Of a stretch of 64,000 nt of DNA, positions 1 through 40,069 are shown in pieces. Source of the stretch: Glutamicibacter sp. JL.03c (lineage in GTDB: Bacteria > Actinomycetota > Actinomycetes > Actinomycetales > Micrococcaceae); assembly GCF_025854375.1 (NCBI RefSeq), contig NZ_CP107575.1:3162001-3226000 (forward strand), given 5' to 3'. How positions within the stretch are numbered: position 1 is the stretch's first letter; each line of letters begins with the position of its first letter. The notes beneath the pieces were generated by a model, which had not been told where the DNA came from, did not search any database, and saw nothing but the letters and a program-made list of their open reading frames with translations. The translations under genes were made by a program, and so were the position numbers.

Positions 1-1786
1 AGTTGTTCGCGTAATTGGCAATGAAATCAATGACTACCAGGTAGTCCTTCTTCGGTGCTTTGCGAAGCCCTCGGCCTAGTTGCTGAACAAAGACAATCGC
101 CGACTGCGTTTGTCTTAGCATCACAACTTGATTCACAGTCGGGATGTCCACACCTTCATTGAAGATGTCCACTGTCAAGATGTAGTCGAGTTCGCCAGCT
201 TCTAGCTGAGCGACGATTCGTTCACGTCGTTCAACCGAGTCCTCGCCGCTAAGGCTCACCGTCCGCAGAGGCTTTCCGCGTAACTGTTGCTGATTCAAAG
301 CAGCAGACAGTGCGTTCGCTTCATCCTTGCGAGAGCAGAAGATCAGGCCCTTGGGCGAAACGCCGGCTTGCCCGTATTTCGTCAACGCATCGACTACGTG
401 GTGCACACGATCCGGTGTCACCAGGCGCGAGAGATCCGCGGAGCTATCGCGAATCGATTCATCGTCAAGGGTCACGTCCGCAATCCCGTAATAGTGGAAC
501 GGGCTGAGCATGTTCTCTTCCAAAGCATGATTCAGCCGGATTTCGTATGGAACGTTGTAGTCGAAGAACTCGAATACGTTGAATCCGTCGCTTCGTTCCG
601 GAGTAGCCGTTAGTCCGAGCAAAAACGACGGTTGCAGGTGCGACAGGACTTTTTTGTAGGTCGGCGAACCAACTCGATGGGCTTCATCGACAATAACGTA
701 GTCAAAGGCGTCGGGTTCTATCGACTGCAACACCAAATCTAGCGACAGAGTCTGAACCGTCGCGAAAACATACTTTCGGTCGCTCTGCTTGGAGGCTCCT
801 GCCAGCTTGCCGAACTGTTCTGGATCTCCGCCAATAACACGGCGGTATTCCTTGATCGTCTTATCCAGGATCTGTTCGCGATGAACAACAAACAAGAATC
901 GCTCTGGGTGGGCAGCTCGCACCTCAAGCGCCGACAGTATTGTTTTGCCTGTGCCGGTTGCCGAAATGACAATGGCCTTGGATTCACCGCTGAGGCGCAC
1001 CTTCTCCAATGCCTTGAGGGCTTCAGACTGCATTTGGTTGGGCAGAATCGGCATGAGATGATCAGCCCAATTGGTGTAGCCGCCTAAGCCGATGGATTCG
1101 GAAAGCTCTGCGGCGACTTCATCGATGAGCTGCTCATCTGCTTGCTCAAGTTTCTTGGCAGCCTCGATCCTCTTGCGCGGCGGTGGAGGCGTGTACTGCG
1201 CCGAATAGAGATCAATCCATTCCTGACTCAGGGATTGAGACTCCGTGAGTTGGTTTCCAGCAAGGTCTGCCAGCTGTCCGGCCAAGTCGCTGTCGTTCGC
1301 CGCGGTTACCTTCAGATTCCACTCATGGTTTTTGACAATAGCGTTGCCGGTAAGGTTTGAACTTCCGATCATAGCTGTGACCACGTCAGTCGACTTAAAA
1401 ATATAACCCTTGGGGTGGAAAGCATCAGCGCTATGAATTCGCACGTCAATGCCAAGGTTTCCCAGGTTCAGCAACTCGCTGAAGGCAGACGGCGAGTTGA
1501 ACCCCAGGTAATCCGAGGTGATGATAGTGCCGCGACCAGAGAACTCCAGAAGTTCCTGCTTGAGCATTGCGATTGCATTAGGTGTCACGAAAGCTACGGA
1601 GAAAATGAATTCATCGCATCGCGCCAGTTCCTCACGCAGGATACGTAGAACCGTATTGCCGTCCGCGTTAAGGACTACACGTGGATGATGGTGGCGACGA
1701 GACTGTTTCTTACTGTCCAAAAAACCATAGGTGACATCGCCGGAAAGCCCACCGGTAAATGAGATATCAGGGCTAGACGACGTCAT
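1..1786 (-). CDS. PLD-nuclease/SF2 DEAD-DEAH helicase, C-terminus outside window
   Basis: Partial gene: 595 codons are open from the ATG at 1786 to the left edge. Residues about 40-165 look like a phospholipase-D-type nuclease domain, with one HxK half-motif (H124, K126) followed by GSSNLT (141-146). A superfamily II helicase core follows: Walker A SATGTGKT (275-282), DEAH (367-370), TAT (393-395) and a motif VI-like QQLGRGLRK (568-576). Proteins with this order often end in a DUF3427 domain, which would lie outside the window. The start codon overlaps the stop of the upstream NUDIX gene (ATGA), so the two are very probably translated together. Such helicase-nucleases are often found in defence islands, but the role here is inferred. 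The region looks less GC-rich than the rest, suggesting acquisition by transfer. Confidence 0.85.
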   Translation of the reverse strand, partial: MTSSSPDISFTGGLSGDVTYGFLDSKKQSRRHHHPRVVLNADGNTVLRILREELARCDEFIFSVAFVTPNAIAMLKQELLEFSGRGTIITSDYLGFNSPSAFSELLNLGNLGIDVRIHSADAFHPKGYIFKSTDVVTAMIGSSNLTGNAIVKNHEWNLKVTAANDSDLAGQLADLAGNQLTESQSLSQEWIDLYSAQYTPPPPRKRIEAAKKLEQADEQLIDEVAAELSESIGLGGYTNWADHLMPILPNQMQSEALKALEKVRLSGESKAIVISATGTGKTILSALEVRAAHPERFLFVVHREQILDKTIKEYRRVIGGDPEQFGKLAGASKQSDRKYVFATVQTLSLDLVLQSIEPDAFDYVIVDEAHRVGSPTYKKVLSHLQPSFLLGLTATPERSDGFNVFEFFDYNVPYEIRLNHALEENMLSPFHYYGIADVTLDDESIRDSSADLSRLVTPDRVHHVVDALTKYGQAGVSPKGLIFCSRKDEANALSAALNQQQLRGKPLRTVSLSGEDSVERRERIVAQLEAGELDYILTVDIFNEGVDIPTVNQVVMLRQTQSAIVFVQQLGRGLRKAPKKDYLVVIDFIANYANN

Positions 1787-2172
1787 GCTGCCATAATGAG
1801 TTCAACAGCGGGGATATCGGCAGGAGCCCATTCCAAGGTGTCCAGTTCGCCGCGCTTTAGCCACTTTGTAGCTTCGTGCTCCGTCAGCTGCGGCTCCCCC
1901 TCAACTAATTCGCAATAAAAGGTCGTCAGAGTCACGATCCCAAAATCATATTCATGAGTCGTGCTAGTAACTTCTTCGGCCACCGTAATGGTGCAGAGTA
2001 GCTCTTCCTGAATTTCCCGTTCAAGTGCCTGTCGAGGAGTTTCGCCGGCTTCGATTTTGCCCCCTGGGAACTCCCACATGCCACCGAGGCTGCCGCCGAA
2101 TCCGCGACGCGCGCAAAGAATCTCATCGTTTCGTACAATTACGGCCCCGACAACCTTGATTTGCTTCTTCAA
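1783..2172 (-). CDS. MutT-like NUDIX (d)NTP pyrophosphohydrolase
   Basis: 129-residue NUDIX hydrolase. The full Nudix box G-x5-E-x7-R-E-x2-E-E runs from about residue 38 to 57, and the compact size is that of MutT/CTP pyrophosphohydrolases, which hydrolyse (d)NTPs or oxidised nucleotides to NMP and pyrophosphate. The start is a TTG with a GGAG ribosome binding site at 2180-2183, spaced 7 nt. The stop TGA overlaps the ATG of the helicase gene by 4 bp, so this is the first gene of a two-gene unit. Like its neighbour it is poorer in G+C than the rest of the window. The exact nucleotide substrate cannot be read from the sequence. Confidence 0.88.
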   Translation of the reverse strand: MKKQIKVVGAVIVRNDEILCARRGFGGSLGGMWEFPGGKIEAGETPRQALEREIQEELLCTITVAEEVTSTTHEYDFGIVTLTTFYCELVEGEPQLTEHEATKWLKRGELDTLEWAPADIPAVELIMAA

Positions 2173-2331
2173 CCTAATTCTCCACTGACGTCTACATTAA
2201 TCGACTACGACCGTTACTAGTGATCTTATCTGCCAACACTGACACTTTGCAGGCAGACGGATAAAACAGCGTAGTAGAGCGGAAACGTTGAGTAATTTCC
2301 ATAGCCAGTTGGCGCACATAAACAGAAAAGA

Positions 2332-2367
2332 CCACGCTTCGACTTCTAGGAAGAAAACGAAGCGTGG
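2332..2367 (-). terminator. Rho-independent terminator of the dgo operon
   Basis: Perfect 10-bp inverted repeat (2332-2341 with 2358-2367), followed on the minus strand by a T-rich run. It lies just beyond the stop of the last dgo gene at 2391. Confidence 0.85.
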
Positions 2368-2390
2368 CCTCTCCAGATTGAACGTGCGTC

Positions 2391-3725
2391 TTAACTCTCG
2401 ACGCGCTGAACCTTGCCTACCAAGAAGACGTAGGAGAGGATGCCGACCGCGGCAATGACCGTCATATAGATGAAGGCCGGACCGAAGTCGGTCGCCGAGA
2501 CCAGCAAGCCAATAACTATTGGAGTGGCAATCGATGAGAGGTTGCCAATGAAGTTGAACATGCCACCGGTCAAGCCAATCAAGTGCGATGGTGCCAGCGC
2601 GGACACCAGGGACCAGGTAATCGAGGCCAGCCCATTGCCGAAGAAGGCAATGGACATGAAGGTGATGACCAGCGCGGTGCTATCGGTGAAGATTGCGCCA
2701 ATCATGCTCATGGACAGCAGGAGCCCGGTGATGATTGGCAGCTTGCGCGAGGTGCCGAGGCTGGCTCCGCGTTTCAGCATGAAATCGGAGAGCACACCAC
2801 TGATCAGAACCCCGGCCAACGCTGCGATAAATGGCAACGACGTCAGGAAGCCGGTCTTGATGTAGTCCATGTGGCGGTAAGTCACCAAGTAGGTGGGGAA
2901 CCAGGTCAGGAAGAACCACAGTGTGGAAGTCAGGCAGAACTGTCCAATGTAGATGCCCCACAGCTTGCGACGGCCCAGGACCAGAGCGAAATCTGATTTG
3001 CTCAGCTTTCGCGCGGGGGTCTTGGCCTGGGAGCTGCCAAGGTCAACCAATCCCCCGCCTTGGCGGATGTACTCGACTTCTGCAGCATTGGCTTTCTTGG
3101 AATCCACGGGATTGCGGTACATGAGGAACCAGATCAGGCCCCAGATGACACCGACGGCACCGGTCACTACGAAGACCCAGTGCCAGGTCAAGGCATGCTG
3201 CAACCACAGCAGGACTGGGGTCAGCAATGCCAGGCCGATGAACTGGCCCGAGGTATAGAAACCGATAGCTGTGGCGCGTTCACGTTCGGGGAACCACGCA
3301 GTGACTACCTTGTTGTTGATGGGGTAGGCCGGCGCTTCAAAGCCGCCTACGGCCAGGCGCAGGACAATCAAGGCCACGAAACTTCCGGCCATGCCCATGA
3401 AGATGGTGGCAAGGGACCAGAGCACCAAGCAGATGGGGTACAGCAACCGGGGTTGCACCCGGTCTACTAGCCAGCCGCCGGGCAGCTGCATGGCAGCATA
3501 GGTCCAGCCAAAGGCTGAGAGCAGCAACCCCTGCTGGGCTGTGTCCAGGCCGAATTCTTCAGAGATCAAGGGAGCTGCAACCGAAAGGTTGGAGCGATCC
3601 ATGTAGTTGATGACCACGGTGAGGAACAACATGAACGCTACGGCGTAGCGCATCTTTGTAGCTTTGTCAGCGCCCTTGAGTGCTGCAGCTGACGACATTG
3701 TCGACTGAGACATATGATTTACCAT
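2391..3725 (-). CDS. dgoT: MFS transporter of the anion:cation symporter family, probable D-galactonate permease
   Basis: About 444 residues with twelve predicted membrane segments. The N-terminal stretch [13 protein letters not shown] is typical of the ACS family (DgoT, GudP, hexuronate transporters). Its place behind dgoK, dgoA and dgoD makes D-galactonate uptake with protons the likely role. The start is uncertain: ATG 3725 overlaps the dgoD stop by a few bases and suits translational coupling, while ATG 3713 lies just after the stop; neither has a strong ribosome binding site. The last gene of its operon, it is followed by a clear terminator. Confidence 0.88.
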
Positions 3726-4867
3726 TCTGCGAAAGAACCATCTTTGTGACGCCAAATTGGGTTGCGCCAGCGGTGACCTTCAGCTGCGCGTTCAATGACG
3801 TACTCTTCATTGACATCAATGCCAAGGCCGGGACCATCAGGAATGGCGACCATGCCATCCTCATAGGCGAAGACCGAAGGATCATTGACATAATCAAGGA
3901 GATCGTTGGATTTGTTGTAGTGAATTCCCAGGGATTGCTCCTGGATGAAGGCGTTATACGCACCGGCATCGATCTGCAGGTTTGCCGCCAGGGCGATCGG
4001 GCCCAGTGGGCAGTGCAATGCGACCGCCACGTCATAGGCTTCAGCCATGGCCGCGATCTTGCGCGCCTCGGTGATGCCACCGCAGTGCGAAGGATCCGGC
4101 TGGATGATGTCCACCGCTCCGCTGGCCAGGACGTCCTTGAAGTCCCAGCGCGAGAACAAACGCTCGCCCAGGGCGATTGGGGTACTGGAATTGCGCAATG
4201 GCTCGAGCATTGAGTTCACATTCTCGCTGAGCACTGGTTCCTCGATGAACATCAGCTTGTACTGTTCAAGTTCCTTGAGCAGTACCTTGGCCATCGGCTT
4301 GTGGACACGGCCATGGAAATCGACGCCGATGCCCACGTTTTCACCCACGGCGTCGCGTACCGCCTGGACATTCTCCAAGCATCCTTGCACCTTGTCCCAG
4401 GTGTCGATGTACTGGAGTTCCTCGGTGCCGTTCATCTTCACCGCGGTGAATCCGCGATCAACCGCTGCCTTCGCCGCGGCAGCCGTGTCCGACGGACGGT
4501 CGCCGCCAATCCACGAATAGACGCGGATCTTGTCGCGGACCTTGCCGCCGAGCAGTTCATAGGCCGGGACTCCCAGGGCTTTGCCCTTGATATCCCAGAG
4601 CGCCTGGTCGATGCCCGCCAAGGCGCTCATCATGATGCCGCCACCTCGGTAGAAGCCGCCGCGGTACATAACGGTCCACAGGTCTTCGATGTTCCGCGGG
4701 TCCTGGCCGATGAGGTAATCCGAGAGCTCTTCAACGGCTGCAGCGACCGTGGAGGCACGGCCTTCGAGCACTGGCTCGCCCCAGCCAACAATCCCCTCGT
4801 CGGTTTCGATCTTCAGGAACAGCCAGCGAGGCGGCACCATGTACGTGGTCAGTTTCGTGATTTTCAT
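3719..4867 (-). CDS. dgoD: D-galactonate dehydratase
   Basis: Enolase-superfamily sugar acid dehydratase converting D-galactonate to 2-dehydro-3-deoxy-D-galactonate. Its 382 residues equal the length of E. coli DgoD, and the expected catalytic residues sit at the same numbers: D183, E209 and E235 as Mg2+ ligands, with H185 and H285 as acid/base residues. The ATG overlaps the dgoA stop by 4 bp (ATGA). It is the third of four co-directional dgo genes, and all enzymes of the DeLey-Doudoroff galactonate route down to the aldolase are present. Assignment to galactonate rather than another sugar acid is strongly supported by this context. Confidence 0.95.
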
Positions 4868-33900: not shown

Positions 33901-35583
33901 ATGACGAACAACGAGCAACGACCTGCAGGAGCAGCCGGCGCGCCGGTGGTGATCAGCGGCGGCGGTCCCAGCGGCCTGTTCCTGGCCTTGGACCTCGCCC
34001 AGCGCGGCATCGAATCCGTGCTGATCGAGCCCCGGCAGGAGATCGACCGGCTTCGCCCGCGGGCCAAGACCACCAATGCGCGCACCATGACCCACCTGCG
34101 GCGCCTCGGGCTGGCCGACGCGCTGCGTCAAGCTGCCCCGTTGCCCACCAGCTATTCGCAGGATGTCATTTTCTGCTCGACCCTCACCGGCTACGAGATC
34201 ACCCGATTCCATGAAGCCTTCCAGCTTGCCCAGGGCCCGTACCGCTGGCAGCCCGAATGCGGCCAGCAGATCCCGCAACCCCTCGTCGAAGAGGTGCTGC
34301 GTGCAGCGGTCGCCAAGAACCCGCTGATCACCACCTGGTTCGGCTATCGGACCAGCAGCGTGAGGCAACTTGAGGGCACCACGGCCTTCGGCTCCCCACA
34401 GCATGAGGTCACTGCCGAGAATGCGCACGGCACAACGCTCAGCATAAGGGCCGACTTCGTCGTCGGCGCCGACGGAGCCAGCTCCGTGGTGCGCAAATCC
34501 ATGGGCATCCCCATGGTTGGCGGTTCCGCCGCGCTCTCCAATGTCAGCGCCGTGTTCACCTCCTCCGACCTGGCACGCACGGTGGAGCTTGACCCGGCGG
34601 TGCAGTACTGGGTCCTTTCCGAAGGCGTCTGCGGAATGATCGGTCCGATGGATCTGGCCGATTCGTGGTGGGCGATCATCCAGGGCGCCGACGGCAATGA
34701 TCCGGACTTTGATGCGGCCTCCTCCATCCGGACCATGGTGGGCGCGGACATCGACCTGCAGATCCAGGCCACCGACCCGTGGACCGCCCGCATGCTTCTG
34801 GCCAGCTCCTATGGCCGCGACGGAATCTTCCTGGTGGGAGACGCGGCCCACCTGAATCCGCCCTGGGGCGGTCATGGCTTCAACACCTGCATTGGCGATG
34901 CCAGCAATCTGGCATGGAAACTGGCGGCCGTCCTGCACGGGTGGGCACCCCCGGCCCTGCTGGCTTCCTATGAGCTGGAACGGCGCCAAGTCGCCGAGCG
35001 GACCATCGCCGAAGCGGCGCAGAATGGCAAGTCCCTGGCCTACGACTTTGCCAGTGCCTTGCTCAACGCCCCGGGCTCCGAGGCCGACGCGGCCAGGGCG
35101 TCGGCGCAAACCCATCTGCAGGTCAAGGCCAGCGAGTTCCATTCGCTGGGTCTGGTACTGGGCTACCACTATGCCGGGTCGCCGATCATCGCGGCCGATG
35201 GCAGCGAGCCCCCGGCCTCGCATCCGATCAGCTACACGCCCAGCACTGCTCCCGGATGCTTGCTGCCGCACGCATGGCTGGCACCGGGCAGCTGCCTGTA
35301 CGACCAGCTCGGCCAGGATTTCACCTTGCTCATTGACCAGCATGCCGCCGAGGCAGATGGTGCCATGGCGATCGAGGAGATCAAGGCCGCGGCTGGCGCG
35401 GCCGGCCTCCCCTTGGCCGTGCGCGTCATCGACACTTCCTTTTTCCCGGCAGAATCCCGGTGGGCAGCTTCCGCCGTGCTGATCCGCCCGGACCAGCACG
35501 TGGGCTGGCAGGGCGATGACCTCGCCGGAGTCATGGACGCGCTGCGTCTGTGCCTGGGCAACAAGACCGGTTCACTGGTGTGA
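33901..35583 (+). CDS. FAD-dependent aromatic monooxygenase (PHBH/MhpA fold)
   Basis: 560 residues. The FAD fingerprint GGGPSG is at about 20-25, a DG-type motif occurs in VVGADGASSVVRKSM, and the second FAD motif GDAAHLNPPWGGHG is near residue 313. A C-terminal thioredoxin-like region follows, as in MhpA and phenol hydroxylases. It would hydroxylate a phenolic ring with NAD(P)H and O2. An AGGAG site precedes ATG 33901. The substrate is probably imported by the adjacent AAHS transporter. Confidence 0.88.
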   Translation: MTNNEQRPAGAAGAPVVISGGGPSGLFLALDLAQRGIESVLIEPRQEIDRLRPRAKTTNARTMTHLRRLGLADALRQAAPLPTSYSQDVIFCSTLTGYEITRFHEAFQLAQGPYRWQPECGQQIPQPLVEEVLRAAVAKNPLITTWFGYRTSSVRQLEGTTAFGSPQHEVTAENAHGTTLSIRADFVVGADGASSVVRKSMGIPMVGGSAALSNVSAVFTSSDLARTVELDPAVQYWVLSEGVCGMIGPMDLADSWWAIIQGADGNDPDFDAASSIRTMVGADIDLQIQATDPWTARMLLASSYGRDGIFLVGDAAHLNPPWGGHGFNTCIGDASNLAWKLAAVLHGWAPPALLASYELERRQVAERTIAEAAQNGKSLAYDFASALLNAPGSEADAARASAQTHLQVKASEFHSLGLVLGYHYAGSPIIAADGSEPPASHPISYTPSTAPGCLLPHAWLAPGSCLYDQLGQDFTLLIDQHAAEADGAMAIEEIKAAAGAAGLPLAVRVIDTSFFPAESRWAASAVLIRPDQHVGWQGDDLAGVMDALRLCLGNKTGSLV

Positions 35584-35618
35584 GCACGCGGCAGTAGCGC
35601 AGCCTGATCAACGATGGC

Positions 35619-35653
35619 CCGAGGCCGGCGAGGCAATGGCTCGCCGGCCTCGG
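35619..35653 (+). terminator. Terminator after the monooxygenase gene
   Basis: Perfect 14-bp inverted repeat (35619-35632 with 35640-35653), 7-nt loop, then AATTT. Confidence 0.8.
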
Positions 35654-36247
35654 AATTTCCCCGCCCATGGAGGGGTCCTTCTGCATTGGCTGAAGCATGG
35701 CCCTAGGGGGTGAACACTGACGCGCCCCGTCTGGCTGTCCCGGGCAGCGCCTGGCATCCATGAGTCACATCGCGGCCTGGTAGGGCCGGCGCGCCCAAAG
35801 AACAGCCCTGCGCTCCGCAATCTCCCATTGCTCCCCACGGCGGCACCGAGTTACCGATCCGGTGATGATCTTCGTGCTCGAGTGGTTGAATGGGCGTTCT
35901 TCTTGCGATCAGCCGGCATATTTTCACCGTGTCCCTTGGTGTTCCTGTCGTTGCGCCCGCCAAGGCGCAACTCGCCGTTGACCGGCAGCGCACACGATGT
36001 GCAATTCAATGCCCTGCGCATGGTCGCCCCTGCGGCGGCTGGCAATCGCGGAGCAAAGCCGTCCTGGCCGATCCCCTCCGTCACGAGGCTCGGTTCGATG
36101 CAGAATCCGACCCAATAGCGCAGGTGCGGCAGGTCGTTCCCAGGCGCCATGGGCTGCCTCGTGCACACGTTCGATGACTGCCCCGACGTTGGCAGGGTTA
36201 GGATCTCGGCGCTCCAGCACCACCTTCGATGCGCTAGCACCAGGGAT

Positions 36248-36279
36248 TTGACCTTGACCTCAAGGGCAAGGTTTAACCT
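36248..36279 (+). promoter_or_regulatory. MerR-type promoter with long spacer and dyad
   Basis: TTGACC (36248-36253), 20-bp spacer, TAACCT (36274-36279). A dyad ACCTTG (36251-36256)/CAAGGT (36267-36272) fills the spacer. The long spacer with a central dyad is the hallmark of MerR-activated promoters. Confidence 0.7.
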
Positions 36280-36298
36280 GTACTGCAGGAGGTGCTGG

Positions 36299-37240
36299 AT
36301 GCGCATTAGTGAACTGGCGAAAAGGGCCAGAGTGTCGATCAAGGCGGTCCGCTACTACGAACGACTTGGCCTGATCGAGGCGGAACGAGAGCCCAACGGT
36401 TATCGGACCTTTAACGACGATCACGTCCGGGCTGTGGTCGAAATCCGCGAACTCAGTGAAATCGGCATCTCGCCGCTGAAGGCCGGGCCGTTCGTCGAGT
36501 GCTTGGACCTCGGACACGATCACGGGGATGAATGCGTGAGCTCCCTGGCGGTCTATCGCGACTCGATCGCCGAGGTTGATCGCATGATCGACGCACTTTC
36601 GACTCGCCGAGCGGCCCTGCAGCAGCGGCTAGAAAAAAGTGCCGGCCGCTCCTTCACCCAACTCAACGCTGTGCTCGAGTTCACGACTCTGCCCCCAGGC
36701 CTGCCCGTTCCGGTGGACGACGGGGCGGTGGATCACCTAGCGGGGTCATTGGTGCCCCAACTGAAGCTGCCCAGCACCCAAGGCCAGATTGTCGAACTTT
36801 CAGCTCTCGGTCCGGGCCGCACCGTCCTCTACTTGTACCCGCTGACCGGCCGGCCCGGAGTCGACCTGCCAGAAGGATGGGACTCCATTCCAGGAGCACG
36901 GGGATGCTCCACCGAGGCCTGCAACTTCCGCGACCACTTCCAGCAGTTGCGAGACACCGGTGCGGAGCGGGTGTTCGGCTTGTCCAGCCAAAGTACCGCA
37001 TACCAGGCGGAAGTCGTCGAGCGGCTGCGCCTGCCCTTCGGCATGATCTCCGATGAGAAAATGGTGCTGGCTGACTCGCTGCGCTTGCCGACCTTCGCGG
37101 CCTCCGGCCACGAGCGGCTGTATTCCCGGCTGACCCTCATCATCCGCGATGGACAGATCGAGCACGTGTTTTACCCGATCTTCCCGCCGAACACCCATGC
37201 CCTGCAGGTGTTGCAGTGGCTGTCCGACAACCCGCTCTGA
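36299..37240 (+). CDS. MerR regulator fused to a peroxiredoxin-like domain
   Basis: 313 residues from ATG 36299, which has an AGGAGG site. Residues 1-105 are a MerR helix-turn-helix and dimerisation helix (ISELAKRARVSIKAVRYYERLG). Residues about 150-310 are a peroxiredoxin/AhpC-TSA-like domain with GARGCSTEAC (two cysteines four residues apart), VFGLSSQ and LTLIIRDG segments. The fusion suggests a regulator that senses peroxide or thiol state through its own redox domain; this is inferred. The upstream promoter is of MerR type, fitting autoregulation and control of the genes that follow. Confidence 0.85.
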   Translation: MRISELAKRARVSIKAVRYYERLGLIEAEREPNGYRTFNDDHVRAVVEIRELSEIGISPLKAGPFVECLDLGHDHGDECVSSLAVYRDSIAEVDRMIDALSTRRAALQQRLEKSAGRSFTQLNAVLEFTTLPPGLPVPVDDGAVDHLAGSLVPQLKLPSTQGQIVELSALGPGRTVLYLYPLTGRPGVDLPEGWDSIPGARGCSTEACNFRDHFQQLRDTGAERVFGLSSQSTAYQAEVVERLRLPFGMISDEKMVLADSLRLPTFAASGHERLYSRLTLIIRDGQIEHVFYPIFPPNTHALQVLQWLSDNPL

Positions 37241-37285: not shown

Positions 37286-37918
37286 GTGCAGCCCTTGCAA
37301 CTTACTGAACACATCATCGTCGAACCCAGCGTCTTGTACGTCGGCACCCCGGTCATGCTTCTATGCACCGAAAACCCGGACGGGACCACAAACCTTTCGG
37401 TGGCCTCGTCATACTGGTCGCTCGGGCGCATGATAGTGATCGGCCTGCTCAACCAGGGGAGAACTATCAAGAACCTCCTGGAACGCCCAGACATCACCGT
37501 TAACTTTCCCTCGCCGGACAAGTGGAAATCGGTGGAGTCAATCGCCGACACCACGGGAATGGACCCCGTGCCGGCCACCAAGCGTCATCGCTACACGTAC
37601 GAACCGGACAAGTTCGCCCGGGCAGACCTCACGCCTCAGCCGTCTGATGTCGTGGGCCCATCCCGTGTGCGCGAGTGCGCTCTCCAATTCGAGGGCAGGC
37701 TGTGCAAAGCGACACCAGGGGCCGGGGAATACTGCATGGCCGAGGTAGAGGTGCTGAGGATCCACGCCGATCCACGGATCGTCGTGCCAGGCACCCAGCA
37801 CATCGACCCCAGCATGTGGCAGCCGACCATCTATAGCTTCCGTCACTACCTCGGCGTCAGCGAAGAAGTCGGACACCGCGCCAATAGCGACACCGCTCAC
37901 CCGGTGAGGAACTCGTAG
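37286..37918 (+). CDS. Flavin reductase-like FMN-binding protein
   Basis: 210 residues of the flavin-reductase-like split beta-barrel class. Segments such as TNLSVASSYWSLGRMIVIGL and LLERPDITVNFPS fit the FMN-binding core. It could supply reduced flavin to a monooxygenase or act as an oxidoreductase itself. The start is a GTG at 37286 with no clear ribosome binding site, so the N-terminus is uncertain. It lies 45 bp after the MerR-peroxiredoxin gene. Confidence 0.75.
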   Translation: MQPLQLTEHIIVEPSVLYVGTPVMLLCTENPDGTTNLSVASSYWSLGRMIVIGLLNQGRTIKNLLERPDITVNFPSPDKWKSVESIADTTGMDPVPATKRHRYTYEPDKFARADLTPQPSDVVGPSRVRECALQFEGRLCKATPGAGEYCMAEVEVLRIHADPRIVVPGTQHIDPSMWQPTIYSFRHYLGVSEEVGHRANSDTAHPVRNS

Positions 37919-37974
37919 AAGCTCCTCTGATCGCATTCCTCCCTAACCGCCTCCGCAACCAACTAGGAGAACAA

Positions 37975-38874
37975 TTGAGCAACTTCACAGGCCTCAGCGC
38001 CTTCCCTCTGACCCCTCTCTCGGACGACCGGATCGACGAGCGCGCATTCGTCGGCCTCGTCGAACGCCTCGCCGCGGCAGGTGTCGACTCGATCACGGCC
38101 CTGGGGTCGACTGGCTCGTACGCCTACTTGAGCGCCGAGGAGCGCGCACGGGTTTCCCGGCTCGCCGTCGAGCACGCGGGATCCACGCCGGTATTCGTGG
38201 GGGTCGGTGCCCTGCGCACCTCGCAGGTGCTCGCGAATGTCGAAGCCGCCGAGCGGGCCGGTGCCGCAGGAGTGCTGCTCGCGCCCATGACCTACCAGCC
38301 TCTGACGCATGTTGACGTCTTCGAGCTGTTCCGCACGGTCACCGAGCGCACCGAGCTGCCGGTGATCGTCTACGACAATCCGGGTACCACGCACTTCTCC
38401 TTCACCAACGAACTCTACGCCCGCATCGCCGAGCTCCCAGGCATCGGCTCGATCAAGATCCCGGGCGTTCCAGCCGACCCGGCAGCGGCCCGCGAGCACA
38501 TCGCGGCCATCCGTGCCGTGGTCCCGGCCCACTTGACCATCGGCGTATCGGGAGATGCCTTCGCCGCGGCGGGCCTGAATGCCGGCTGCGACGCCTGGTA
38601 CTCCGTCATCGGTGGAACCCTCCCCGTGCAGTCGCTCGCCATCACCCGCGCGGCCCAGGAAGGAAGAGCGGACGATGCCATAGCTGCCTCTGAACGTCTC
38701 GCGCCGATCTTCAAGCTGTTCGCAGAGTTCGGCGGGAGCCTGCGAGTAGTCGCCGCGATTGCAGAGCAACTCGGCCTTGCTCCAACACGAAGCCTGCCGT
38801 TGCCTCTTCTGGGACTCACCGAGGCGCAGCGTGTGCGAGTGAGCGAGGTGGTCGATGAACTCGGCCTCGACTGA
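37975..38874 (+). CDS. Dihydrodipicolinate synthase/N-acetylneuraminate lyase family protein
   Basis: 299 residues, class I aldolase TIM barrel. The catalytic tyrosine lies in VIVYDNPG and the Schiff-base lysine in GSIKIPG. The start is TTG 37975 with AGGAG upstream. In this context, beside a flavin reductase and an MFS gene, it is probably a catabolic aldolase or dehydratase and not the lysine-pathway DapA. Overlaps the next gene by 20 bp. Confidence 0.85.
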   Translation: MSNFTGLSAFPLTPLSDDRIDERAFVGLVERLAAAGVDSITALGSTGSYAYLSAEERARVSRLAVEHAGSTPVFVGVGALRTSQVLANVEAAERAGAAGVLLAPMTYQPLTHVDVFELFRTVTERTELPVIVYDNPGTTHFSFTNELYARIAELPGIGSIKIPGVPADPAAAREHIAAIRAVVPAHLTIGVSGDAFAAAGLNAGCDAWYSVIGGTLPVQSLAITRAAQEGRADDAIAASERLAPIFKLFAEFGGSLRVVAAIAEQLGLAPTRSLPLPLLGLTEAQRVRVSEVVDELGLD

Positions 38875-40069
38875 AAGCGCAGAGGAAGTCGCTGATCCCG
38901 CCGAGAAGGGCCGAGGGTGGGCGCTTGCCCGGTACGTCGCCGCTTCGACGCTAGTGCGCTCGGCCGATGGCGGCGCGGTGGTCGCGATCGTCTTGCTCGC
39001 CCAGGCTTCAGGCCTGCCCGGTTGGGTCTCGGGGCTGCTCGGCGCTTCGATCACCGCGCCACACCTGCTGGGTCCGTTCATCGCGCGCCGCCTCGACACG
39101 GCACGGGACGGGCGGAAGGTCATCGCCCTCGCCGCACTAGTCCACGGTGTGCTGCTGGGTGCTGCCGGCCTGCTGCTGCCCGTCACGTGGGCTGCTGTTC
39201 CAGCGGTGCTGCTGATCGTATCGGGCCTGTTCGGGCCGATGCTCACCGGCGGTGTCAGCAGCCGCTTGCCTTCGATCGCGGGCCCGTCGCAGAGAAGCCA
39301 ACGCCGCGCCCAGGGCTGGGATGTCGCAAGCTATGGCCTCAGCGGCACCCTCGGCCCGGCGGCGGTCGCCTGGATCGCCGCCGGCCCTGGGCCGCTGACG
39401 GCGACACTCGCGCTCGCGGCCGCCGCGATCGCCGGCGCCGGAGGCGTGCTCATTCTTCCTCGACAGGATCCCCAGGTTGCCGCCGCGGACGTTCCCTCGC
39501 CGGGGCGCACACTGCTGGTGATCTGGCGATCGGGGCCGTTGCGGCGGACTCTCTCGCTGACCGTCGTTGTGGCGTTCGCGGTGGCCGTGCTGCCAATTTA
39601 CGCGGTGGCGGTTGCTCCATCCCTCGGAAGCGCCGCGCTGGCTGGCACCTTGGTCGCCGGCTACGGAGTCGGAAGCTTGACGGGTTCCGCGGTGCTCATG
39701 GCGTGGCCGCTGAGGGGAGAATCAGATCGGCTCACTGCGGTGCTTGCCCTTGTTGTGGCGGCCAGTCTGGCCGTGGTGCTCATGGTTCCAGGATTCGTAT
39801 CGGTCCTGGTGTCCTTCGGCATAGCGGGAATCGCGAATTCCTTGTTCTTCGCTGCAACGCTTGCTGCGCGCAGCGAGCATGCGCCGGCCGAGGCCCGCGG
39901 GCAGGTGTTCATCTGGGTTGGCGCCCTGAAGATCGCTGCTGGATCCGCAGGCACGGCGGTGGCGGGCGCGCTTATCACGGGTATCGTGTGGCTGCCGGTC
40001 GCGCTCGTTGCAGGGCTGACTGCGCTGGCCGGCCTAGTAAGCACAGCCGAACGCGTGAGATCTCGTTGA
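38855..40069 (+). CDS. MFS transporter
   Basis: 404 residues with about twelve membrane helices and an ARRLDTARDGRKVIAL loop after helix 2. It resembles MFS_1 efflux or sugar-acid carriers without a clear subfamily. Overlap of 20 bp with the aldolase gene shows cotranscription in the MerR-led unit; it may import the aldolase substrate or export a product. Confidence 0.78.
   Translation: MNSASTESAEEVADPAEKGRGWALARYVAASTLVRSADGGAVVAIVLLAQASGLPGWVSGLLGASITAPHLLGPFIARRLDTARDGRKVIALAALVHGVLLGAAGLLLPVTWAAVPAVLLIVSGLFGPMLTGGVSSRLPSIAGPSQRSQRRAQGWDVASYGLSGTLGPAAVAWIAAGPGPLTATLALAAAAIAGAGGVLILPRQDPQVAAADVPSPGRTLLVIWRSGPLRRTLSLTVVVAFAVAVLPIYAVAVAPSLGSAALAGTLVAGYGVGSLTGSAVLMAWPLRGESDRLTAVLALVVAASLAVVLMVPGFVSVLVSFGIAGIANSLFFAATLAARSEHAPAEARGQVFIWVGALKIAAGSAGTAVAGALITGIVWLPVALVAGLTALAGLVSTAERVRSR

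Follow-up and report, generated by a model that had tools for sequence, protein, structure and literature searches.

Peroxide sensing is described, in the excerpt of PMC5984441 on which we draw, as the work of one-component regulators such as OxyR in bacteria and of a peroxiredoxin oxidising a transcription factor in eukaryotes. Within the window, the 64,000-nucleotide stretch of DNA analysed here, a gene joining a MerR-type DNA-binding domain to a peroxiredoxin-like domain raises the question whether a single protein could act as redox sensor and regulator at once, as a first-pass annotation had proposed. A conserved MerR-peroxiredoxin fusion with its own promoter offers a compact system for examining the peroxiredoxin-to-regulator mode in bacteria. 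Judging from sequence comparison, the fusion, which belongs to soil-type bacteria, is probably a self-contained oxidative-stress circuit.

Gene and protein architecture

The gene and the main parts of its product are located as follows.

36299..37240, + strand, MerR-peroxiredoxin fusion gene; single open frame, ATG 36299 to TGA 37240, 313 aa
36287..36292, + strand, Shine-Dalgarno AGGAGG of the fusion gene; -11.6 kcal/mol against the anti-SD
36299..36655, + strand, MerR half; winged helix residues 1-58 (Pfam), long dimer-type helix 80-119 (model)
36740..37189, + strand, peroxiredoxin (Redoxin/AhpC-TSA) domain; residues 148-297 (Pfam, Foldseek)

The proposed joining of a MerR domain to a peroxiredoxin-like domain was borne out, as one 313-aa frame carries both Pfam domains above cut-off: MerR (PF00376) at residues 2-38 with 49.5 bits (cut-off 28.2), MerR_1 (PF13411) at residues 1-58, AhpC-TSA (PF00578) at residues 201-288 with 44.7 (cut-off 26) and Redoxin (PF08534) at residues 148-297 with 44.6 (cut-off 26.6). 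According to Pfam and model, the architecture of the MerR family is present, its N-terminal winged helix continuing into a long dimer helix, and a short linker then connects to the Bcp/PrxQ-like peroxiredoxin domain. The AlphaFold2 model (20 sequences, mean pLDDT 83, pTM 0.55) displays the winged helix, the long helix 80-119, a low-confidence linker at residues 116-127 that is predicted to be disordered, and a thioredoxin-type fold; at this pTM, the placement of the MerR half relative to the peroxiredoxin half is unreliable. Best Foldseek matches of the modelled peroxiredoxin half were the Bcp/PrxQ structures 5enu, 5epf and 3drn, and the NCBIfam bcp/PrxQ equivalog scores of the protein lie far below their cut-offs (51.2 versus 140 and 42.7 versus 260 bits).

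Distribution and genomic context

A scan of genome contigs yielded 25 loci, 19 of them with full fusions at 53-71% identity from Brevibacterium, Kocuria, Leucobacter, Mycolicibacterium, Streptomyces, Pseudonocardia, Actinomadura, Plantactinospora and Kutzneria. When whole genomes were sampled, the query was matched over its full length in 2 of 396 from the phylum, 7 of 347 from the order, 16 of 395 from the family and 31 of 343 from the genus of G199, where two shorter matches were also found; in the window's own genus, the single match among 18 genomes is the window's genome itself. Among plasmid records with a match, the alignment spans 80% or more of the query in 6/182, all of them from Streptomyces and carrying the annotation 'redoxin family protein' or 'MerR family transcriptional regulator'. 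This patchy distribution suggests transfer between lineages.

The search for further fusions that had been recommended as a check returned 69 that are open and in frame, of which 59 remain after ten were removed at an identity of at least 90%. Left out of the 69 were a locus with the frame broken between the halves (L028) and one that is not open (L102), and four matches without a locus in the G199-genus sample (G943, G1104, G1011, G804) stand outside the set. All counts across fusions are inflated by relatedness among the sequences. A sequencing frameshift joining two genes, the artefact that could have undone the initial proposal, is ruled out by these 69 in-frame fusions from many independent assemblies. 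In L028 (Thermoactinospora rubra), the two halves lie in different frames, reflecting a mutation or an assembly error. Linker length and sequence vary among the fusions, and an intact two-gene version of MerR and peroxiredoxin was not seen among the relatives. Within the open-licence literature we found no paper describing a MerR-peroxiredoxin fusion, and the excerpt of PMC4531530 describes none.

Two genes found directly downstream may belong to the same transcript.

37286..37918, + strand, flavin-reductase-like gene; ~45 bp downstream of the fusion, start codon uncertain, possibly co-transcribed
37975..38874, + strand, DHDPS-family gene; possibly co-transcribed with the fusion

Together with a hydrophobic transporter-like ORF they occupy 37286-40069, separated by short gaps and all in the orientation of the fusion, with which these genes perhaps form one operon. 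A DHDPS gene is found downstream of the fusion in 4/59 loci (the window, L006, L084 and L120) and follows it on a Streptomyces plasmid (H1) as well. Four of the 59 loci (L126, L129, L133, L135) share a conserved 214-aa gene about 1.0 kb past the fusion start, which by eye looks like an FMN-binding PaiB-type protein. No neighbour is conserved in more than 5/59 loci, many of which hold only 1.5 kb on each side. The ~665 bases from the aromatic-hydroxylase gene to the fusion promoter (35583-36248) contain only overlapping small ORFs and no evident gene. The G+C content of positions 1-4000 is 54%, compared to 62-68% in the remaining window.

Promoter and predicted operator

Upstream of the gene, the following elements were assigned.

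36248..36253, + strand, -35 element TTGACC; TTGAC in all 53 of the 59 relatives that pass the promoter rule
36252..36271, + strand, dyad CCTTGACCTCAAGGGCAAGG, predicted operator of the MerR half; 7 of 8 arm pairs
36274..36279, + strand, -10 element TAACCT; 52 of the 53 rule-passing relatives have TA here

The spacer between TTGACC and TAACCT (36254-36273) holds the dyad and, at 20 bp, has the length of MerR-type promoters with a dyad in a 19-20 bp spacer. The promoter rule, which asks for TTGA and then at least six of eight paired arm positions at a fixed offset, holds upstream of 53/59 relatives, with a mean of 0.06 and a maximum of 2/59 in 200 shuffles. The remaining six (L018, L090, L093, L095, L097, L128) display a weaker dyad at a similar place, and the consensus reads TTGACCTTGCCCCCGAGGGCAAGGTTTAGCGT. 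The dyad-filled 20-bp spacer described in the first-pass annotation is confirmed by this difference to the shuffles, and conservation across relatives equally supports its assignment as the gene's own MerR-type promoter, and with it self-control. Counting a 19-bp spacer from a second TTGACC was dropped, as the first TTGACC is the one conserved in relatives. A general sigma-70 scan called no promoter at the fusion gene, which is expected because its spacers are limited to 16-18 bp.

The extended site, with up to three mismatches allowed, occurs only once in the 3.59-Mb genome. As the promoter arrangement is conserved in 53/59 relatives and the genomic site is single, the fusion gene is very likely autoregulated through its own promoter, to which its product is predicted to bind. 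A larger regulon is unsupported at the stringency of this search.

Conserved cysteines and related regulators

Only four cysteine columns are conserved among the 59 fusions, two in each half.

36500..36502, + strand, C68; invariant in 59/59 fusions and in 10/10 MerR-thioredoxin sisters
36533..36535, + strand, C79; invariant in 59/59 fusions and in 10/10 MerR-thioredoxin sisters
36905..36907, + strand, C203 (TGC), predicted peroxidatic cysteine; invariant in 59/59
36920..36922, + strand, C208 (TGC), predicted resolving cysteine; forms with C203 the C-x4-C spacing of Bcp/PrxQ, 59/59

C203 and C208 are the two cysteines initially noticed in GCSTEAC, and their invariance bears out that observation. 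H75 of the MerR half is kept in 49/59 fusions. The canonical peroxiredoxin motif PxxxTxxC is not matched: the window reads SIPGARGC, and I197 and A200 at the threonine's place are both invariant in 59/59. Alignment to 5enu furthermore reveals an insert of about 15 residues ahead of the first cysteine, with invariant PEGW and IPGA. The absence of the canonical threonine may alter peroxidase activity. Owing to the missing threonine, the insert and the NCBIfam scores far under cut-off, the peroxiredoxin half is best regarded as a separate peroxiredoxin-like subfamily of predicted activity.

Ten MerR-only matches of the phylum sample (L145-L154) have a thioredoxin gene directly downstream in 10/10 cases, a pairing for which one MerR-thioredoxin pair was checked by Pfam. 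Their promoter layout is that of the fusions with a different dyad (10/10), and their MerR proteins belong to the same MerR subfamily (43-46% identity) and keep C68/C79 in all ten. Ordinary MerR proteins covering both positions carry both cysteines in 0/5 cases (10 loci given, 8 aligned). Thioredoxin is chemically suited as reductant of such a peroxiredoxin. The sequences suggest a place for this MerR subfamily in thiol homeostasis, with its own cysteine pair acting as the switch. With four invariant cysteines and sister MerR genes adjoining thioredoxin, redox sensing by the fusion protein is plausible, and since the sisters keep C68/C79 next to thioredoxin without having a peroxiredoxin domain, the MerR half may be the sensor.

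In Streptomyces-type genomes and in Nonomuraea, a DNA-binding domain of another family, HxlR, was also observed in fusion with an AhpC-TSA/peroxiredoxin domain (L155:1629-2504, L156:1632-2516), including plasmid-collection records from Streptomyces and Nonomuraea (H41-H45). Such a fusion is present in 1/198 phylum genomes, and in L156 the second peroxiredoxin cysteine is absent. It would represent a second, independent fusion of a helix-turn-helix domain to a peroxiredoxin.

Predicted internal start at the domain junction

One codon of the window marks the place at which most relatives show a predicted second start signal.

36671..36673, + strand, GTG (V125), in register with the conserved internal start codon; no Shine-Dalgarno in the window copy, +3.2 kcal/mol

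Defining the junction zone as the 15 codons that precede the peroxiredoxin domain and counting in-frame ATG, GTG or TTG, we find a start codon in 51/59 fusions, and 41/59 combine it with anti-SD pairing at or below -5 kcal/mol, a value reached by 15% of the 719 start-like in-frame codons elsewhere in the same genes. By alignment column, the true gene start scores 0.92 and the column of window residue 125 scores 0.55 at a column mean of 0.011, so that only the true gene start outscores the latter. The ten valines in this column all use GTG, a codon shared by 43% of valines overall, and TTG, at 6% overall, encodes three of its four leucines. None of 300 synonymous-codon shuffles of the preceding residues reached the observed mean SD strength (z -4.4). 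As the shuffles still yield 30/51 sites at or below -5 kcal/mol (observed 41), linker amino acids account for much of the signal, that is, much of the junction SD strength follows from the K/E/G-rich linker composition itself. Thinned to below 70% identity, the junction signal is found in 15/22 sequences versus 40/377 control zones, and below 65% identity in 6/12 versus 24/204.

In the tree of the peroxiredoxin half, for which stand-alone rows with stops or fewer than 110 aa were to be skipped and none was reported skipped, nine stand-alone peroxiredoxins (L021, L023-L026, L098-L101) are interspersed with the fusions, and well-supported branches force at least five changes between fusion and stand-alone. 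All nine stand-alone peroxiredoxins start at or next to the junction place. In L157, a longer stretch of L098, and in L026, a MerR coiled-coil tail lies just before the stand-alone peroxiredoxin; we read these tails as remnants of lost fusions. The MerR half would have been lost repeatedly, in the direction of change that we infer, enabled by a working internal start. The retained junction start codons (51/59) and SD-like sequences (41/59) point to most relatives being built for TipAL/TipAS-like dual products by putative internal initiation. Since GTG 36671 has no upstream SD pairing, the window copy is an exception among its relatives; the signal of two in-frame starts seen in 41/59 is absent, and this copy likely makes only the fusion protein.

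Proposed mechanism and alternatives

We favour a one-gene autoregulated thiol-stress circuit with the MerR half as switch, the peroxiredoxin half as output and an internal start in most relatives, and consider the chances of this reading to be about even. What the sequences show is a conserved fusion behind a conserved promoter, with invariant cysteines and a conserved internal start signal; promoter binding, an oxidant signal, a C68/C79 switch, peroxidase activity and internal initiation are predicted steps. A dimer of the MerR half would sit on the dyad between the over-spaced -35 and -10 elements, keeping its own promoter off, until oxidation of C68/C79, or some other thiol or metal reaction of this pair, would untwist the promoter and turn the gene on. 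The output would be the peroxiredoxin half, a putative Bcp/PrxQ-type thiol peroxidase that removes the oxidant and that thioredoxin would then reduce again. In most relatives, the junction start would additionally supply free peroxiredoxin besides the long regulator, as for TipAL/TipAS. The peroxiredoxin half may be an output enzyme or a relay rather than the sensor, as it survives alone where the MerR half is gone and the sisters keep C68/C79.

It is possible, if rather unlikely, that the peroxiredoxin half itself senses, peroxide reacting with C203 and a C203-C208 disulfide or local unfolding altering the MerR half such that the promoter is activated. The direct fusion kept in 59/59 with invariant cysteines in both domains would fit this, as would the precedent of the TipA switch by a C-terminal effector domain given in the excerpt of PMC7762955, and the fusion of the unrelated HxlR family to such a peroxiredoxin suggests that the coupling is useful. 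However, all ten sisters hold C68/C79 without a peroxiredoxin domain, making a switch possible without it, separate peroxiredoxin production in most relatives would be needless for a pure sensor, and the linker at 116-127 is predicted to be disordered.

A redox relay within the single chain, in which peroxide would oxidise C203 and from there C68/C79, with the internal start setting the ratio of fusion to scavenger and the scavenger shutting off the sensor, we consider doubtful. If true, it would be a one-protein counterpart of eukaryotic peroxiredoxin-to-transcription-factor relays.

An uncoupled fusion, arisen as neutral read-through of what was once a two-gene operon, appears improbable: the retained internal start, the peroxiredoxins that have repeatedly outlasted their MerR half, and the variable linker would all be compatible with it, but the frame is open in 69 genes across a wide range of Actinomycetota, and the relatives offer one frame-broken locus and no intact two-gene version. 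Least probable is a MerR half sensing a metal or non-peroxide electrophile via C68, H75 and C79 with the peroxiredoxin as general protective output, since the position of C79 at the dimer-helix start, which we take to be the place of the ligand cysteine in metal-sensing MerR proteins, the widely kept H75 and the nearest named NCBIfam profile relatives (CueR, ZntR, MerR, CadR) are outweighed by scores far under the cut-offs of all these models, by the absence of the C-terminal metal-loop cysteines that CueR, ZntR and MerR carry from the four conserved columns, and by a window and recurrent neighbours without evident metal genes.

Comparison with known systems

A precedent for the one-gene circuit is the TipA gene of Streptomyces lividans, which according to the excerpt of PMC7762955 has two start codons, one giving a long regulator and the other a short protein with the effector domain. 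According to the same source, TipA (TipAL/TipAS) and SkgA likewise combine a MerR-type N-terminus with a C-terminal effector domain and autoregulation. The two products from two starts of TipA find their likeness in the conserved predicted internal start at a comparable junction, which may add another instance of the TipAL/TipAS logic, an enzyme here replacing the drug-binding domain. TipA differs by its antibiotic-binding TipAS in place of the peroxiredoxin, and the internal start seems lost in the window copy. Pfam gave no TipAS match in the fusion protein and Redoxin instead; by analogy, the fusion would work like TipA yet is no TipA-class member.

With Bcp/PrxQ proteins such as M. tuberculosis BcpB (5epf, 5enu), the fusion has the thioredoxin-type fold and the C-x4-C pair in common, whereas it carries the ~15 extra residues with PEGW and IPGA, lacks the PxxxTxxC threonine and is joined to MerR. 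The MerR-thioredoxin pairs share the MerR subfamily, C68/C79, the promoter layout and a thioredoxin-fold partner, but consist of two separate genes with thioredoxin rather than peroxiredoxin as partner. The HxlR-peroxiredoxin fusions similarly place a DNA-binding domain N-terminal to a related AhpC-TSA domain, with another HTH family and a peroxiredoxin from a distant branch of the tree. In the Pap1-Tpx1 relay of fission yeast, as presented in the excerpt of PMC5984441, a peroxiredoxin is paired with a transcription factor as it is here; there, two eukaryotic proteins are involved, whereas the bacterial fusion unites both in one chain with a putative relay.
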